From: Sulfitobacter sp. HGT1
Lineage (GTDB): Bacteria > Pseudomonadota > Alphaproteobacteria > Rhodobacterales > Rhodobacteraceae
DNA: 64,000 nt
Direction of reading: 5' to 3'
Assembly (NCBI RefSeq): GCF_013282155.1
Contig: NZ_BLWI01000002.1
Coordinates: 124,001 to 188,000, forward strand
Positions within the stretch are counted from its first letter, which is position 1; each line of letters begins with the position of its first letter. A program made the position numbers and the translations under genes. The notes under the pieces were generated by a model that searched no databases, had not been told where the DNA came from, and saw nothing but the letters and a program-made list of their open reading frames with translations. This document shows positions 20,868 to 26,741 of this stretch, in pieces.

Positions 20868-21857
20868 TCATACGCGGGCCCCGTTGCGTCGAAACAGGGT
20901 TTGGCGCGACCGCCCTGCCTTTTTGGATTGGTACAGCGCCACGTCTGCATCGGATAAAATATCTTTGGCGTCCATGGTGTGGTTTTCCAAAATCCAGACG
21001 GTTCCGATGCTGGCCGACACCTTGCAGGCCTGTCCTTGGAAGAGGATCGGTTTTTTGAGCCGTTCAATGACCCTGTCGCCGATGGCCAGCAACATCTGCT
21101 CCGTTGCGACGTCAGGCAGGATCAGCGTGAATTCATCGCCCCCCACCCGCGCGACGGTATCGGCGTTGCGGGTTTCCTCGACCATGATCTGTGCGACCGC
21201 CTGCAAGACGTGATCGCCCGCAGCATGACCCAAACTGTCATTGACCGCCTTGAAGAAATCCAGGTCGATCTGCATAACCGCGAAATTCGCCTGATTACCG
21301 ACAAGCCGCGCCAACACGTGATCCATCGCGCGCCGGTTTTTAAGCCCCGTGAGCGTATCGGTAAACGCCTGTTCTTCGGCGGCAATCTTTGCCCCTTGCA
21401 GTCGCAGGTTCAGCCGGCGGGACGCATCCATCGCGGCTGACTTCGCCTCGATCAGATAGAGCATTTCAATGGCAAGGTCGGTTGCGGCGAAATCGGCATT
21501 GCTCAGCGCATAGTCACGCACCCCGTCCAGAATCGAGATGCCAAAAGACAGGTTGATCACCATGCTGCCTGTTCGGTGATCATGGGGCACCAAGACCGCT
21601 TTCAGATCACTGCCGGGGTCGTCTTCCAGCGCAAGGTGCAACCTGCTGCCCGCCTTGCGACGCAGATCATCCATCGTGACAATGCCCTTTGGCCGCTTGA
21701 CGGCGAACCGGTCAAAGAAAGCTTCACCGACCAAAGCGCCGGTTTTGCATATCTTTTGAATTGTCGGTCCGGCGTGGCTGATGGTGCCGTCTTTTTCCAC
21801 TAGCACATGCATGGGGCACAGCACGTCCAGCATCCCGGCTTGCGCAAGGGATGTCAT
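20868..21857 (-). CDS. HNOBA-domain diguanylate cyclase (GGDEF)
   Basis: A 329-residue protein. Residues about 8-125 resemble the HNOBA (H-NOX associated, PAS-like) domain of soluble guanylate cyclases: MLDVLCPMHVLVEKDGTISHAGPTIQKIC, then FFDRFAVKRPKG. A coiled signalling helix (about 130-165) leads to a GGDEF domain with TDTLTGLKNRRAMD, the intact active-site GGDEF at 239-243 and a product-inhibition RxxD (R230-D233) five residues before it. It should therefore make cyclic di-GMP. It overlaps the upstream H-NOX-like gene by four bases (ATGA), so the two are translated together as sensor and output, a split analogue of guanylate cyclase. Confidence 0.88.
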   Translation of the reverse strand: MTSLAQAGMLDVLCPMHVLVEKDGTISHAGPTIQKICKTGALVGEAFFDRFAVKRPKGIVTMDDLRRKAGSRLHLALEDDPGSDLKAVLVPHDHRTGSMVINLSFGISILDGVRDYALSNADFAATDLAIEMLYLIEAKSAAMDASRRLNLRLQGAKIAAEEQAFTDTLTGLKNRRAMDHVLARLVGNQANFAVMQIDLDFFKAVNDSLGHAAGDHVLQAVAQIMVEETRNADTVARVGGDEFTLILPDVATEQMLLAIGDRVIERLKKPILFQGQACKVSASIGTVWILENHTMDAKDILSDADVALYQSKKAGRSRQTLFRRNGARV

Positions 21858-22441
21858 CCCAGGCGCGCACCCAGGTCGAATTGCCGCCCTTGGGCGAAAT
21901 CCTTGTCGACCAGAGTGATAAATATCTTTTCCACACCATTCTTGCCGGTTTCGTGATCCAATAGCACCAAGGCCCCGTAATCATCGGCAATGACGCGTAG
22001 CATGCCCACGAAAACATAGCCGAACCCCGAAACGGACCCGCGGCACAGCAATTCGAAACAACCGTTGCCACGTTCGTCTATTTCCAGTTCGGGCAGATCA
22101 AGGTCCGAGACCGCCAGCCTTGCCCTGTCGGGCAGATCATCCAGCGACAGCAGGAATTCCTCGAAGGTGACGCCGCCAAAGCGCAGCAAACGCCTGACCC
22201 CTTCAAGCTTTGGGGTCGAGACAAGATAGGTGCCCAGATCTTCCAGCAGTTCGTGAATGGGCCGCCCCATCACCAGTGAAACCGCATCAACAAGCCGCGT
22301 CGTCACGTCGTCGTCATAGCTCATCATCGCCTCAAAATCGATAATGGCCAAGTCGGCGCTGCCTGTCACCTGCCCCCAGACGTCATTGCCAAAAGTGTCA
22401 CAAACATAATTTTGAATGCTTCGATTAATGAGGCCGTGCAT
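21854..22441 (-). CDS. H-NOX (heme NO-binding)-like protein lacking heme-ligand motifs
   Basis: A 195-residue protein starting MHGLINRSIQNYVCDTFGNDVW, the standard H-NOX N-terminus, and keeping the family pattern through RRLLRFGGVTFEEFLLSLDDL and VGMLRVIADDYG. Aligned by eye with soluble guanylate cyclase beta-1, Pro104 stands where the proximal heme His105 should be (LDALH versus LDDLP), and the Tyr-x-Ser-x-Arg motif that binds heme propionates reads C-R-G-S-V. Heme binding in the usual way is therefore doubtful. The ATG at 22441 is preferred over one 15 bases upstream because it gives the canonical MHGL start behind an AAGGGA site. It is four-base overlapped with the HNOBA-GGDEF gene. Confidence 0.82.
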   Translation of the reverse strand: MHGLINRSIQNYVCDTFGNDVWGQVTGSADLAIIDFEAMMSYDDDVTTRLVDAVSLVMGRPIHELLEDLGTYLVSTPKLEGVRRLLRFGGVTFEEFLLSLDDLPDRARLAVSDLDLPELEIDERGNGCFELLCRGSVSGFGYVFVGMLRVIADDYGALVLLDHETGKNGVEKIFITLVDKDFAQGRQFDLGARLG

Positions 22442-22586: not shown

Positions 22587-24149
22587 CTAGAAATCCGTCG
22601 GTGCCCCGCCTTCGGCTTTGCGCCGTGCCACAAAATCCGCCAGCTCGTCGCGGATCGCATCCTCCATCGGGGGCGCTTCAAAGCTGGCAACGATTTCCTT
22701 GAACATCAAATGCGCGCGCTCGGGTGTCCAGATGGCACCGGCGGCCTCCCAGCCTTCGTAATTTTTCCAGTCACTCAGAAACGGTTGATAGAACGCTTCG
22801 GTATAGCGGTCCTGCGTGTGCTGGATGCCAAAGAAATGCCCCTGATTGCCCACCGATTTAATGGCGTCGAGGGCGATTTCATCCGGGCCTGTCGCGCAGA
22901 TCACCGGGTCCATATAGCGCTGGATCTGCTGGAGCACCTCGCAATCCATGATGAACTTTTCAGGGCTGGCGATCAGCCCGCCCTCAAGCCAGCCCGCCGC
23001 GTGATAGACCATGTTCGTACCCGATTGCACGGCGGCCCACAGACTGTTGGAGGTCTCCCACATGGCCTGGCCGTCCGGCACGTTGGCCGCGCATACCCCC
23101 GACGACCGCATGGGCAGATCGTAAAATCGGCACAATTGCCCGGTCATCTGGGTGGCGCGCATGTATTCAGGGGTGCCAAAGGCAGGCGCGCCGGTTTTCA
23201 TATCCACATTCGATGTGAAGGTGCCAATCGCACAGGGGCATCCGGGGTTGATGATCTGCGCCAAAACAACGGCGCACAGCGCCTCGGCCAGCGATTGTGC
23301 CACGGCACCCGCCATCGTCACAGGTGCCATCGCACCGGCCAGCGTAAAGGGTGTCACGACCAACCCCTGCCCGCGCCGCGCCAGCCGCATCCAGCCGTCC
23401 AGCATCGGGATGTCATGTTTAAGCGGCGAGGTGGAGTTGATGTTGGTGTACATGCGCGGGGTGGCGTCGAATTCCTCGTGGGTAAGTCCGCCCGCGATAC
23501 GCACCATTTCCATCACGTCTTCGACACGTTCCTTGCCCAGACTATAGGCGTGCATGACCTTATCCGTCAGGGTCAGCTTGTCATACAGCACGTCCAGATG
23601 CCGGACAGAGGCGTGGATATCGACGGGTTCCACCGGATAGCCGCCTGCAAAGTGGATACAGTTGAAATATTGCGTCAGCTTCAGCAGGTCCTGACACATG
23701 GCGCGGGTGCCGGGCACCTTGGTGCCAATCGACATGTCCCAATAGTTCGGCGGCGATGACACATTGCCAAACACCAGATGTTTGCCCCCGATGGTGATCT
23801 GGCGGTCCGGGTTGCGCGGGGTCAGGGTGAATTGCGATGGCGCATGGGCGATCCATTCCATCACGAAATCGCGCCCCATGCGGACGTTTTCACCGTTCAC
23901 CGTACACCCGGCTTTGCGCAAGATATCCAGCGCCTCGTGGTTAAGGAATTCGATCCCGATCTCTTCGAGAATGCGCATGGCCCCGTCATGGATCGCCTCG
24001 ACGCCTTCGGGGGTCAGCGGTTCTGTGGGGCGGTCGATGTTAATTGGCGGGTTCCACGGCATCTGTTCGATCACGGAAGTGCCGCGCCGTGTCTTGGCCC
24101 CTGCACGGCCACCGCCACGGGTTCTGCGTTTCGGATCGGTATCTGGCAT
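22587..24149 (-). CDS. MttB-family (trimethylamine methyltransferase-like) protein, non-pyrrolysine
   Basis: A 520-residue member of the MttB superfamily (COG5598), recognised from LTPEGVEAIHDGAMRILEEIGIEF at the N-terminus, DLLKLTQYFNCIHFAGGYPVEPVDI and YHAAGWLEGGLIASPEKFIMDCEVL. The frame is uninterrupted by TAG, so it is not a pyrrolysine enzyme. Non-Pyl members include glycine betaine and other quaternary-amine methyltransferases that pass methyl groups to a corrinoid protein; no corrinoid protein gene is adjacent, so substrate and partner are open. The start has a strong AGGAGG site three bases upstream. The N-terminal ~35 residues are basic and disordered (RRTRGGGRAGAKTRRG). Confidence 0.85.
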   Translation of the reverse strand: MPDTDPKRRTRGGGRAGAKTRRGTSVIEQMPWNPPINIDRPTEPLTPEGVEAIHDGAMRILEEIGIEFLNHEALDILRKAGCTVNGENVRMGRDFVMEWIAHAPSQFTLTPRNPDRQITIGGKHLVFGNVSSPPNYWDMSIGTKVPGTRAMCQDLLKLTQYFNCIHFAGGYPVEPVDIHASVRHLDVLYDKLTLTDKVMHAYSLGKERVEDVMEMVRIAGGLTHEEFDATPRMYTNINSTSPLKHDIPMLDGWMRLARRGQGLVVTPFTLAGAMAPVTMAGAVAQSLAEALCAVVLAQIINPGCPCAIGTFTSNVDMKTGAPAFGTPEYMRATQMTGQLCRFYDLPMRSSGVCAANVPDGQAMWETSNSLWAAVQSGTNMVYHAAGWLEGGLIASPEKFIMDCEVLQQIQRYMDPVICATGPDEIALDAIKSVGNQGHFFGIQHTQDRYTEAFYQPFLSDWKNYEGWEAAGAIWTPERAHLMFKEIVASFEAPPMEDAIRDELADFVARRKAEGGAPTDF

Positions 24150-24256
24150 GTGAACCTCCTGAAAATCAGTTCCAGAAGGCCTGATCCTGCGCATGGGGTC
24201 GTTGCCATTACCGACGAGAAGTGTCGTTTTTCGCGCCTGCCTCGTGTCTGCCCCGC

Positions 24257-24967
24257 CTAGCCGCGTTGCGCATCCAACGCGTCAAGCCAGTCGGGCAGAT
24301 GGCTGATATCCGGCAGAACCACATCGGCATAGGGGGCCAGATCATCGGCCGACGCCATACCTGTCAGCACACCGATACGGGTCATTCCTGCGGCTTTCGC
24401 AGCCAGCAGATCATGGGTGCTGTCCCCGATCATGGCAATGGCAGCAGGGGCCAGCCCGACTTGTTGGGCAAATCCGTTCAGCTGCCCCGGTTCGGGCTTG
24501 CCGCCGAAACCGCTGTCAAATCCGGCGACAAAATCAAACATATGCGTCACACCCGCCTTGTCCAGATGCGCCCGCGCTGGTGCCTCGGCATCATTGGTCG
24601 CCACCCCCAGCTTCAATCCCCGCGCTTTCAGCACCGTCAGAAACGGCACCAAGGGGGTCACTTCGCTTTGCGGGGCCAGTGCGGCTTCTTCGTTGATGAT
24701 GTCGATCAGCCCCTGCCGCGAATGTTCGGGAACGTGCTGCCCCAGCGCACCGGCCACATCACCGGGGGTACCGGCGATCACGATGCTGTCTGTCGAAAAC
24801 CGTTTGGCACTATAGTCATACCCGACCACAGCCCCGATCGCAGTGGCGCGTGCAGCGTCTTTATTGCTGAGCCGGGTCAGAAACGCATGTGCCCATGCCT
24901 CCCAGGTTTTGGCGAAATCGAACAGCGTGCCGTCCTTGTCGAAAAGAATACCTTTGATCATGGTCAT
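24257..24967 (-). CDS. HAD-family hydrolase (phosphoglycolate phosphatase-like)
   Basis: A 236-residue phosphatase with HAD motif I in ILFDKDGTLFDF near the N-terminus, motif II Thr in KLGVATNDAEAPA, and motifs III/IV in GGKPEPGQLNGF and IAMIGDSTHDLLAAKAAGM. This subfamily acts on small phosphometabolites such as 2-phosphoglycolate. The ATG at 24967 overlaps the stop of the upstream DUF3572 gene as ATGA, so it is preferred to the ATG at 24973. Confidence 0.87.
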   Translation of the reverse strand: MTMIKGILFDKDGTLFDFAKTWEAWAHAFLTRLSNKDAARATAIGAVVGYDYSAKRFSTDSIVIAGTPGDVAGALGQHVPEHSRQGLIDIINEEAALAPQSEVTPLVPFLTVLKARGLKLGVATNDAEAPARAHLDKAGVTHMFDFVAGFDSGFGGKPEPGQLNGFAQQVGLAPAAIAMIGDSTHDLLAAKAAGMTRIGVLTGMASADDLAPYADVVLPDISHLPDWLDALDAQRG

Positions 24968-25245
24968 GTCCAATTCACCTGTTCGCCGCCCGGCAAGGAC
25001 TGGCGTGCCTGCATCACCCGTTCATAGGGCATCCGGAGTGTATCGCAAAACGCGATGACCCAGGCATCATCCATCATCACGAAATCCAGCACCGCCCCCA
25101 GAAACCCGGGATCGGTCGCCTGGGTGCGCAAATCGTCGGCGCTGGCCCCGCTTGCATCCATAAACACCGGCAGCAAGTCTTCGTTGGCCACCAGCCAGGC
25201 CAAGGCCTGCAACCCGATGGCTTCGGCGGCTTCCTGCGTAAGCAT
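24964..25245 (-). CDS. DUF3572 family protein
   Basis: A 93-residue acidic alpha-helical protein matching the DUF3572 pattern of alphaproteobacteria: EAAEAIGLQALAWLVANEDLLPVFMDASGASADDLR, then DPGFLGAVLDFVMMDDAWVIAFCD. Function is unknown. It is translationally coupled to the HAD phosphatase gene by a four-base overlap, and is divergent from the PleD-like gene. Confidence 0.85.
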   Translation of the reverse strand: MLTQEAAEAIGLQALAWLVANEDLLPVFMDASGASADDLRTQATDPGFLGAVLDFVMMDDAWVIAFCDTLRMPYERVMQARQSLPGGEQVNWT

Positions 25246-25346: not shown

Positions 25347-26741
25347 GTGCAAGGCAAGATCCTGATCGTTGATCCGATCGCCACAAACAGAATTCTTTTA
25401 AAGACCAAATTGGGCACTGCATTTTTTGATGTGCGCCAGGCCACCAGCGTTGCCGAAGCATTGGCGCTGGCATATCACGACCCTCCGGACCTTATCATAA
25501 CCGCATTCTACCTTTGTGATGCAGACGCTACGGCCCTTCTGGACGGGCTGGCCCCGAAGGCAGGCGGACAACGCACCCCTGTGATCGCCATCGGCGAAAC
25601 GGGGGATTCCGCCTTGCGCCAGCGGTTTTTGTCGCGCGGTGCGCAGGATGTTCTGATCAAGCCGCTTGTCGATGCCTTCTTGCTCAGCCGCGTGCGCAGC
25701 CTGATCCGTCTGTATCACTCCCCCGAAGAATGGCAGATGCGCGCCGAAACCGGCCACGCCTTTGGTCTGGCCGACCCACCGGCGTGTTTCCAGATGTCGG
25801 GGCATATCCAGCTTGTCGGGTCCGACAAGGCGCTGAACCACATCTGGGCGGCGCAACTGCGGCAGGATAACCTGAACAAGATTTCGGTTTCCGCTGTCGG
25901 AGAGGCGATGACCCGTCTGACCGGCGAAGGGATGCCGGACGTTTTTGTATTGGCGCTGACACCGGACAAGACCAGCGTCACCGATCAAATGCACCTGATA
26001 TCGTCAATCCGCGCCAATGCGGGCACCCGCCATTGCGGGATCATTGTGGTGCAAACCGACCAGAACGCCGATGTCGCAGCCATTGCGCTTGATCTGGGCG
26101 CGGACGATCTGATGCCCCAAGGCTTTGACGTCAAAGAACTGCATTTGCGGCTATCGGCCCTGCTGGAACGCAAACGCCAGATCGACCGCATCCGCGCAAG
26201 TGTCGAACTGGGCCTGCGCGAAGCGATATTTGACCCGCTCACCGGCCTTTATAACCGCCGCTATGGCCTGGCCGAGATGACCCGCCAGACACGGCAAGCG
26301 ACCTCAGACGATCTGCCCTTTGCTGTGATGATGGCCGATATGGATCATTTCAAGCGCATAAATGATGAACACGGCCATGCCGCAGGCGATGCTGTGCTGG
26401 TTGAAACCGCCCGCCGTCTGCGCACACATCTGCGCCCGTCGGATATGGCGGCCCGGATCGGCGGCGAGGAATTCCTGCTGCTGCTGCCCGGCACGAATGA
26501 AGCGGAGGCAACCGCTGTGGCCAACCGGCTGCGCCAGGCGTTTGAGCGCACGCCCTTTGTTATTCCCGGCTCTGCCAAGTTATTGACCGTCACAATCAGC
26601 ATCGGATTGTGCCTGATTTCCCGTTCGGACCTGGCTGGTGACGACATTTCAAATGCGGCAATCGACCGCGCGGACAAGGCGCTTTATGCCGCAAAAAATA
26701 TGGGCCGCAATTGTGTCTTGCTGGACAGGCCGGCTGCCTAG
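25347..26741 (+). CDS. PleD-like diguanylate cyclase with degenerate receiver domains
   Basis: A 464-residue protein with two CheY-like receiver domains followed by a GGDEF domain, the PleD architecture. The first receiver keeps ILIVDPIATNRILLKTKLG and a Lys (LIKP), but the phospho-acceptor Asp53 of PleD is Ala53 here and the acidic pair Asp9-Asp10 is Asp9-Pro10. The second receiver has MPQGFD where KPF is expected. The cyclase domain looks active: DPLTGLYNRRYGL, GGEEF at 372-376 and an RxxD inhibitory site (R363-D366). It starts at GTG with AAGGA eight bases upstream. It should make cyclic di-GMP under a control other than classical receiver phosphorylation. Confidence 0.88.
   Translation: MQGKILIVDPIATNRILLKTKLGTAFFDVRQATSVAEALALAYHDPPDLIITAFYLCDADATALLDGLAPKAGGQRTPVIAIGETGDSALRQRFLSRGAQDVLIKPLVDAFLLSRVRSLIRLYHSPEEWQMRAETGHAFGLADPPACFQMSGHIQLVGSDKALNHIWAAQLRQDNLNKISVSAVGEAMTRLTGEGMPDVFVLALTPDKTSVTDQMHLISSIRANAGTRHCGIIVVQTDQNADVAAIALDLGADDLMPQGFDVKELHLRLSALLERKRQIDRIRASVELGLREAIFDPLTGLYNRRYGLAEMTRQTRQATSDDLPFAVMMADMDHFKRINDEHGHAAGDAVLVETARRLRTHLRPSDMAARIGGEEFLLLLPGTNEAEATAVANRLRQAFERTPFVIPGSAKLLTVTISIGLCLISRSDLAGDDISNAAIDRADKALYAAKNMGRNCVLLDRPAA

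Follow-up and report, generated by a model that had tools for sequence, protein, structure and literature searches.

A Pro-type H-NOX-fold protein of Sulfitobacter sp. HGT1 has lost both heme motifs, is encoded with a diguanylate cyclase, and may be its gas-blind regulatory subunit

H-NOX proteins without the heme-ligating histidine are already on record. Kumar and Spiro (2017; PMC5588039), in the passages of their article that concern these proteins, describe the H-NOX proteins of P. denitrificans and R. sphaeroides as lacking the axial His, and they credit this observation to Iyer (2003) and to Plate and Marletta (2013). The review by Lee-Lopez and Yukl (2022; PMC8738867), in its passages on classification, assigns such proteins to group 5, a P. 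denitrificans-based cluster in which under 10% of members have His and most have Pro, and asks how group 5 senses anything. The replacement of His by Pro is thus known as a trait of a whole H-NOX group, and the initial annotation was anticipated by both publications. In the same passages, both assume NO control of c-di-GMP for this branch. They also continue to regard the P. denitrificans protein as probably sensing NO, which counts against the explanation that we favor below. Named database relatives are likewise called "heme NO-binding" proteins. In the open-licence literature that we searched, which leaves out most subscription papers, we came across no study that had measured heme in a Pro-type protein.

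Two relatives have been studied experimentally. The protein of Dinoroseobacter shibae is listed in the relevant part of a review (PMC8846402, citing Bedrunka 2018) among the heme sensors of the HNOB type, with inhibition of Dgc1 in the presence of NO as its effect. In P. denitrificans, according to the biofilm experiments reported in PMC5588039, an hnoX mutant underproduces biofilm and a double mutant with the cyclase overproduces it, biofilm is still stimulated by NO in hnoX mutants, and the authors favor NO-dependent inhibition. Attempts to detect c-di-GMP in that organism failed, as stated in the corresponding passage of PMC12582929; cyclase inhibition is thus unproven there, which also counts against the explanation that we favor.

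The window, the whole stretch of 64,000 nucleotides that was analyzed, carries a gene pair of this kind on its minus strand:

20868..21857, minus strand: diguanylate cyclase of 329 aa, with a weakly HNOBA-like N terminus (residues 7-68) and a GGDEF domain (164-318), by Pfam
21854..21857, minus strand: ATGA in which the stop codon of the H-NOX gene overlaps the start codon of the cyclase gene, read from the sequence
21854..22441, minus strand: Pro-type H-NOX-fold (HNOB) protein of 195 aa, by Pfam HNOB, AF2 model, and Foldseek
22031..22045, minus strand: C133-R-G-S-V137 replacing Tyr-x-Ser-x-Arg, by alignment to Alr2278
22130..22132, minus strand: codon 104, CCC (Pro), at the site of the heme-ligating His, by gap-free alignment to Alr2278
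22587..24194, minus strand: MTTB-family methyltransferase, upstream of the H-NOX gene (Pfam MTTB, E = 2.9e-219)

The H-NOX reading frame starts with MHGL at 22441, and its stop codon ends at 21854. The 195-aa product matches Pfam HNOB (PF07700) with 84.3 bits (E = 1.2e-23; curated cut-off, 25.5), which is the single HNOB match in a profile search of the genome, and the PDB H-NOX protein Alr2278 matches residues 6-158 of the 200-aa open reading frame (E = 4e-20). With the H-NOX protein as query, NCBIfam and PHROGs returned no match at E ≤ 0.01. A confident AF2 model (pLDDT 88.7, pTM 0.84) matched Nostoc H-NOX in Foldseek (E = 5.1e-14, TM 0.81). These data support the initial view that the H-NOX fold is kept and place the protein in the HNOB sequence and fold family PF07700, with its fold as predicted by the model.

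In the alignment to Alr2278, the heme His (NLDNLHARVGL) pairs without gaps with SLDDLPDRARL of the window protein, which puts Pro104 (counted from MHGL; codon CCC) in the proximal position, and a 99-sequence profile recovered the same column. The Y-Q-S-T-R of Alr2278 aligns to C-R-G-S-V. Both replacements had been read from the sequence at the outset and are borne out, and close homologues share the Pro: position 104 of the query and its 120 best-listed homologues is Pro in 111, Ala in 5, Ser in 3, and His in 2 of the 121 sequences, so that neither sequencing error nor chance explains Pro104. We found no other conserved His to take the proximal place. One alternative, His98, lies six residues before it and was rejected, as this residue, His in 219/263 group 5 relatives, is Leu in the window protein and its nearest clade. 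Judged by these alignments, the window protein lacks both the proximal His and the Tyr-x-Ser-x-Arg motif that mark a heme-based NO- or O2-sensing H-NOX.

We next placed the protein in a wider family set composed of 160 group 5 loci, the best 120 of 4,912 database matches, and 31 canonical H-NOX proteins; removal of duplicates reduced the 311 sequences to 294 (263 group 5 and 31 canonical). Group 5 loci had a profile score of at least 176, whereas the remaining H-NOX loci did not exceed 96 or gave no score. Among the 263 group 5 sequences, a set that leans to the window's near kin (80 of the loci are the best 80 of 577 matches), position 104 is Pro in 220, Ser in 14, His in 13, Ala in 9, Gln in 2, and Thr, Glu, Arg, Lys, or Asn in one each. 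It is His in 31/31 canonical proteins, which come from the same bacterial family and are mostly top HNOB scorers, hence canonical partly by choice. The Tyr of YxSxR is present in 0/263 group 5 versus 31/31 canonical proteins and the Arg in 9/263 versus 30/31.

A second sample was spread over genera, mostly with one genome per genus (80 loci fetched, of which the non-group 5 locus L153 was dropped). Its 79 loci, drawn from the better-scoring matches listed, with weaker matches outside its coverage, have Pro in 61, His in 10, and other residues in 8. His104 thus makes up 13% of this sample, compared with 5% of the 263 group 5 sequences and with the "fewer than 10%" given in print. On these residue counts, the window protein would sit in group 5, in which the proximal position is mostly Pro and rarely His. 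Ser, Ala, or Thr at position 104, with the next helix residues kept, was found mostly in Ruegeria (loci L112, L118, L119, L120, L121, L124, L130, L137, L139, L142, L147, L150, and L152). A second H-NOX was present in 13/61 Pro-type versus 0/10 His-type genomes, a difference that is not significant (Fisher p = 0.19, with 62 Pro-type genomes when the window's one-H-NOX genome is included).

The coupling to a diguanylate cyclase, also proposed at the outset, held at every locus examined. The ATGA overlap joins the two genes in the window, and a cyclase relative adjoins the group 5 H-NOX on the same strand in 152/152 distinct loci. Of these, 144 satisfied a distance rule, and inspection added the other 8, which had missed it only through a larger overlap of their stop-to-stop frames. 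The cyclase itself has a clear GGDEF domain (Pfam E = 2.9e-44) with an intact GGDEF motif, which is also intact in 142/144 neighbor frames examined. An RxxD, which we take to be the usual inhibitory site, lies five residues ahead of the motif. The partner is a GGDEF cyclase with a putative HNOBA-like N terminus, for which the HNOBA match is weak (20.9 bits, under the cut-off of 23.4); HNOBA was detected at E ≤ 0.01 in 17/20 partner cyclases scanned. An MTTB gene lies upstream in 110/152 loci, was not found in 39, and could not be scored in 3. Beside the MTTB gene of the window are a HAD-like hydrolase assigned by eye (24257-24973, minus strand; a HAD is annotated beside MTTB in L197 as well) and, nearby, a DUF3572 protein (24964-25245, minus strand; Pfam E = 7.3e-33). 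A second GGDEF protein of 464 aa (25347-26741, plus strand), which starts some 2.9 kb away from the H-NOX and cyclase genes, has an N terminus that reads by eye as PleD-like response-regulator receiver domains.

Position 104 drifts within group 5. On a FastTree phylogeny built without column 104, with uncertain deep branches and from a short protein, this position shows 31 changes, close to the median of 34 for all sites, whereas W22, G70, R87, A110, P117, and D153 do not change at all. The 13 tips with His104 require 12 changes, compared with a mean of 12.8 and a lowest value of 11 after shuffling, and His104 thus occurs sporadically over the group 5 tree; two His104 sequences share 82% identity with a Pro relative. 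In the loci, a single base separates the codons for Ser, Ala, Thr, His, Gln, and Arg at this position from a Pro codon, and more than one base separates those for Glu, Lys, and Asn (one each). As position 104 swaps among Pro, Ser, Ala, Thr, and His while its neighbors are conserved, we infer that no fixed metal ligand resides there. A bolder scenario, which we consider rather doubtful, is that this branch, in most of the Rhodobacteraceae genera where it occurs, went from gas sensor to gas-blind switch: the heme site was lost once and early, the pocket now binds another small molecule that sets c-di-GMP synthesis via the HNOBA-like domain, and His104 recurs by single base change. We also asked whether His104 is tied to a regained Arg137 and rejected this idea, with Arg or Lys in 2/13 His-type versus 9/250 other sequences (p = 0.10). 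Trp135 accompanies His104 in 5/13 versus 4/250 sequences (p = 1e-5, uncorrected for kinship and for the number of sites tried).

The erosion of both heme motifs could also mean that the protein is what remains of an NO sensor in the course of decay. This is very improbable and already largely refuted. The dN/dS values of the window protein against four relatives are 0.049, 0.064, 0.068, and 0.133, with dS near saturation, and two pairs among the relatives gave 0.045 and 0.049 (two of the eight pairs gave no value, their dS being saturated). The protein is under strong purifying selection. The many invariant sites, the unbroken pairing with the cyclase, and the P. denitrificans deletion phenotype reported in the biofilm passages of PMC5588039 likewise speak against decay.

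Selection maintains something other than the heme motifs. Group 5 conserves W22, D68, R149, D153, and D154 almost without exception, whereas these residues are uncommon among the 31 canonical sequences, and R83, R84, and R87 hardly change within the group. Together with the predicted intact fold and Cys133, present in 121/121 nearest sequences, this conservation would suit a protein that uses its emptied heme pocket to sense a different small molecule, or Cys133 to sense an oxidant, and passes the signal to the cyclase. Precedent comes from V. cholerae, whose heme-free H-NOX answers oxidants via a zinc-bound Cys, as described in the corresponding passages of PMC7108781. We nevertheless hold this alternative to be rather unlikely, as Cys133 falls to 227/263 in group 5 and to only 43/79 in the genus-spread sample, is Ala in P. 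denitrificans, and is joined by the less conserved Cys14 (60/121) and Cys128 (11/121). Cys133 is a lineage trait, and the statement in the group 5 passages of PMC8738867 that the group has no conserved Cys needs a qualifier to that extent.

A further alternative keeps the heme: NO would be sensed through another ligand, for example His2, with Pro104 tolerated. His2 is found in 254/263 relatives versus mostly Lys in canonical members, and the D. shibae protein, from the same branch, is the one entered as a heme NO sensor in PMC8846402. Genome G035 was identified as D. shibae by a 4,001-base stretch of plasmid pDSHI01 that matches at 100%; this stretch (L072) matches both contigs C2 and C4 of G035 at 100% and is common to two D. 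shibae replicons. Locus L032 was equated with Hnox/Dgc1 (Dshi_2815/2814) on the basis of the sole HNOB match in the genome and its cyclase neighbor. Its H-NOX reads LDDLHDRARL, with His at position 104, and has Cys133 and Arg137. In P. denitrificans (strain HAMBI_2443), position 104 is Pro. D. shibae, the source of the reported heme and NO evidence, is thus a His-type exception; its evidence says nothing on Pro-types, to which the NO model should therefore not be extended. With YxSxR gone and His98 lost in the window protein as well, heme binding via His2 seems decidedly improbable.

Genome content and structural models were compared between the two types. His104 showed no link to nirS or nirK, which occur in 4/10 His-type genomes and in 26/70 others including the window genome (Fisher p = 1), so that the result speaks for neither side on heme sensing; nirS was counted at a PF02239 score of at least about 386 bits (22 genomes, leaving out a 95-bit fragment in G256) and nirK above the curated cut-off (8 genomes). 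The window genome has nirK, a copper nitrite reductase above the cut-off, and can probably make NO. The Pro-type model scored higher against the active than the inactive structure of all four pairs (8hbh 21.8/8hbe 20.3, 6jt2 20.9/6jt0 19.9, 4u9b 19.3/4u99 19.0, and 6pat 17.0/6pas 16.0). A His-type control, L133, gave the same order for these pairs (23.0/21.6, 21.9/20.9, 19.6/19.5, and 17.7/16.8), showing that the active-like resemblance is not caused by Pro104, and we discarded the idea of an NO-like locked state; this lack of a Pro-specific resemblance to the NO state counts against the explanation favored below. The one secondary-structure difference noted in helix 93-110 is a break at residue 99, which the Pro model has and the His model lacks; this compares one model each of two different proteins, and we give it no weight. 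The structure of S. oneidensis H103G, 2kil, is among the structural matches and reportedly traps the inhibitory form.

On balance, we lean slightly toward the view that the window protein is a gas-blind regulatory subunit of its cyclase, probably an inhibitor, within the group 5 branch. The group 5 branch of Rhodobacteraceae would have lost canonical heme coordination, and the protein, presumably heme-free, would be made together with the overlapping cyclase and most likely contact its HNOBA-like N terminus. It would tune, most likely lower, the synthesis of c-di-GMP and would not respond to NO or O2 through Fe-His chemistry; its input would be either its own abundance or a signal for which the proximal His is not required. 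The in vivo evidence from the Pro-type of P. denitrificans, as given in the biofilm passages of PMC5588039, is compatible with such NO-independent inhibition, and two results count for it: loss of hnoX shifts biofilm in the direction opposite to the cyclase double mutation, and NO still stimulates biofilm in hnoX mutants. Mutants of soluble guanylate cyclase (sGC) point both ways: in the relevant passages, the H105C variant of sGC beta has no heme and resembles the activated enzyme (PMC8196705), which favors our explanation, and sGC H105A is not NO-bound-like in FLIM-FRET (PMC5322342), which counts against it. Useful additions to what was known are the His exception of D. shibae, the finding that position 104 drifts, and the recognition of Cys133 as a trait of this lineage.

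Heme-independent H-NOX folds are known elsewhere. The sGC alpha subunit contains a "pseudo-H-NOX" with the fold but without heme, and the human sequence is without the His, as described in the alpha-subunit passages of PMC8196705; unlike the window protein, it is a eukaryotic fused domain whose N-terminal extension blocks the heme site. The heme-free V. cholerae H-NOX provides a heme-independent response of the same fold through a zinc/Cys redox switch and a histidine kinase partner (PMC7108781, in the passages concerned), but the proximal His is conserved in its groups according to the classification in PMC8738867. The closer comparisons are with the two cyclase-coupled relatives. D. shibae Hnox/Dgc1 shares overlapping genes, 44% identity, and Cys133 with the window pair, and an MTTB-like gene lies further upstream, with another open reading frame between (by eye); the D. 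shibae protein differs in His104, in Arg137, and in its listing as a heme NO sensor in the entry of PMC8846402. H-NOX/DgcA of P. denitrificans (Pden_3719/3720; PMC5588039, in the passages on this locus) has Pro104 and an overlapping GGDEF gene as in the window and differs in Ala133; the two H-NOX proteins are taken as kin from an identity of 37-39% that spans almost the full sequence. Group 5 as delineated in the passages of PMC8738867 devoted to it is said to have no conserved Cys, where the window lineage has Cys133. A neighborhood figure legend in that review names GGDEF and MTTB families, which the text, in these passages, does not tie to group 5. Like the window locus, group 5 has mostly Pro at the proximal position and conserved Gly residues.
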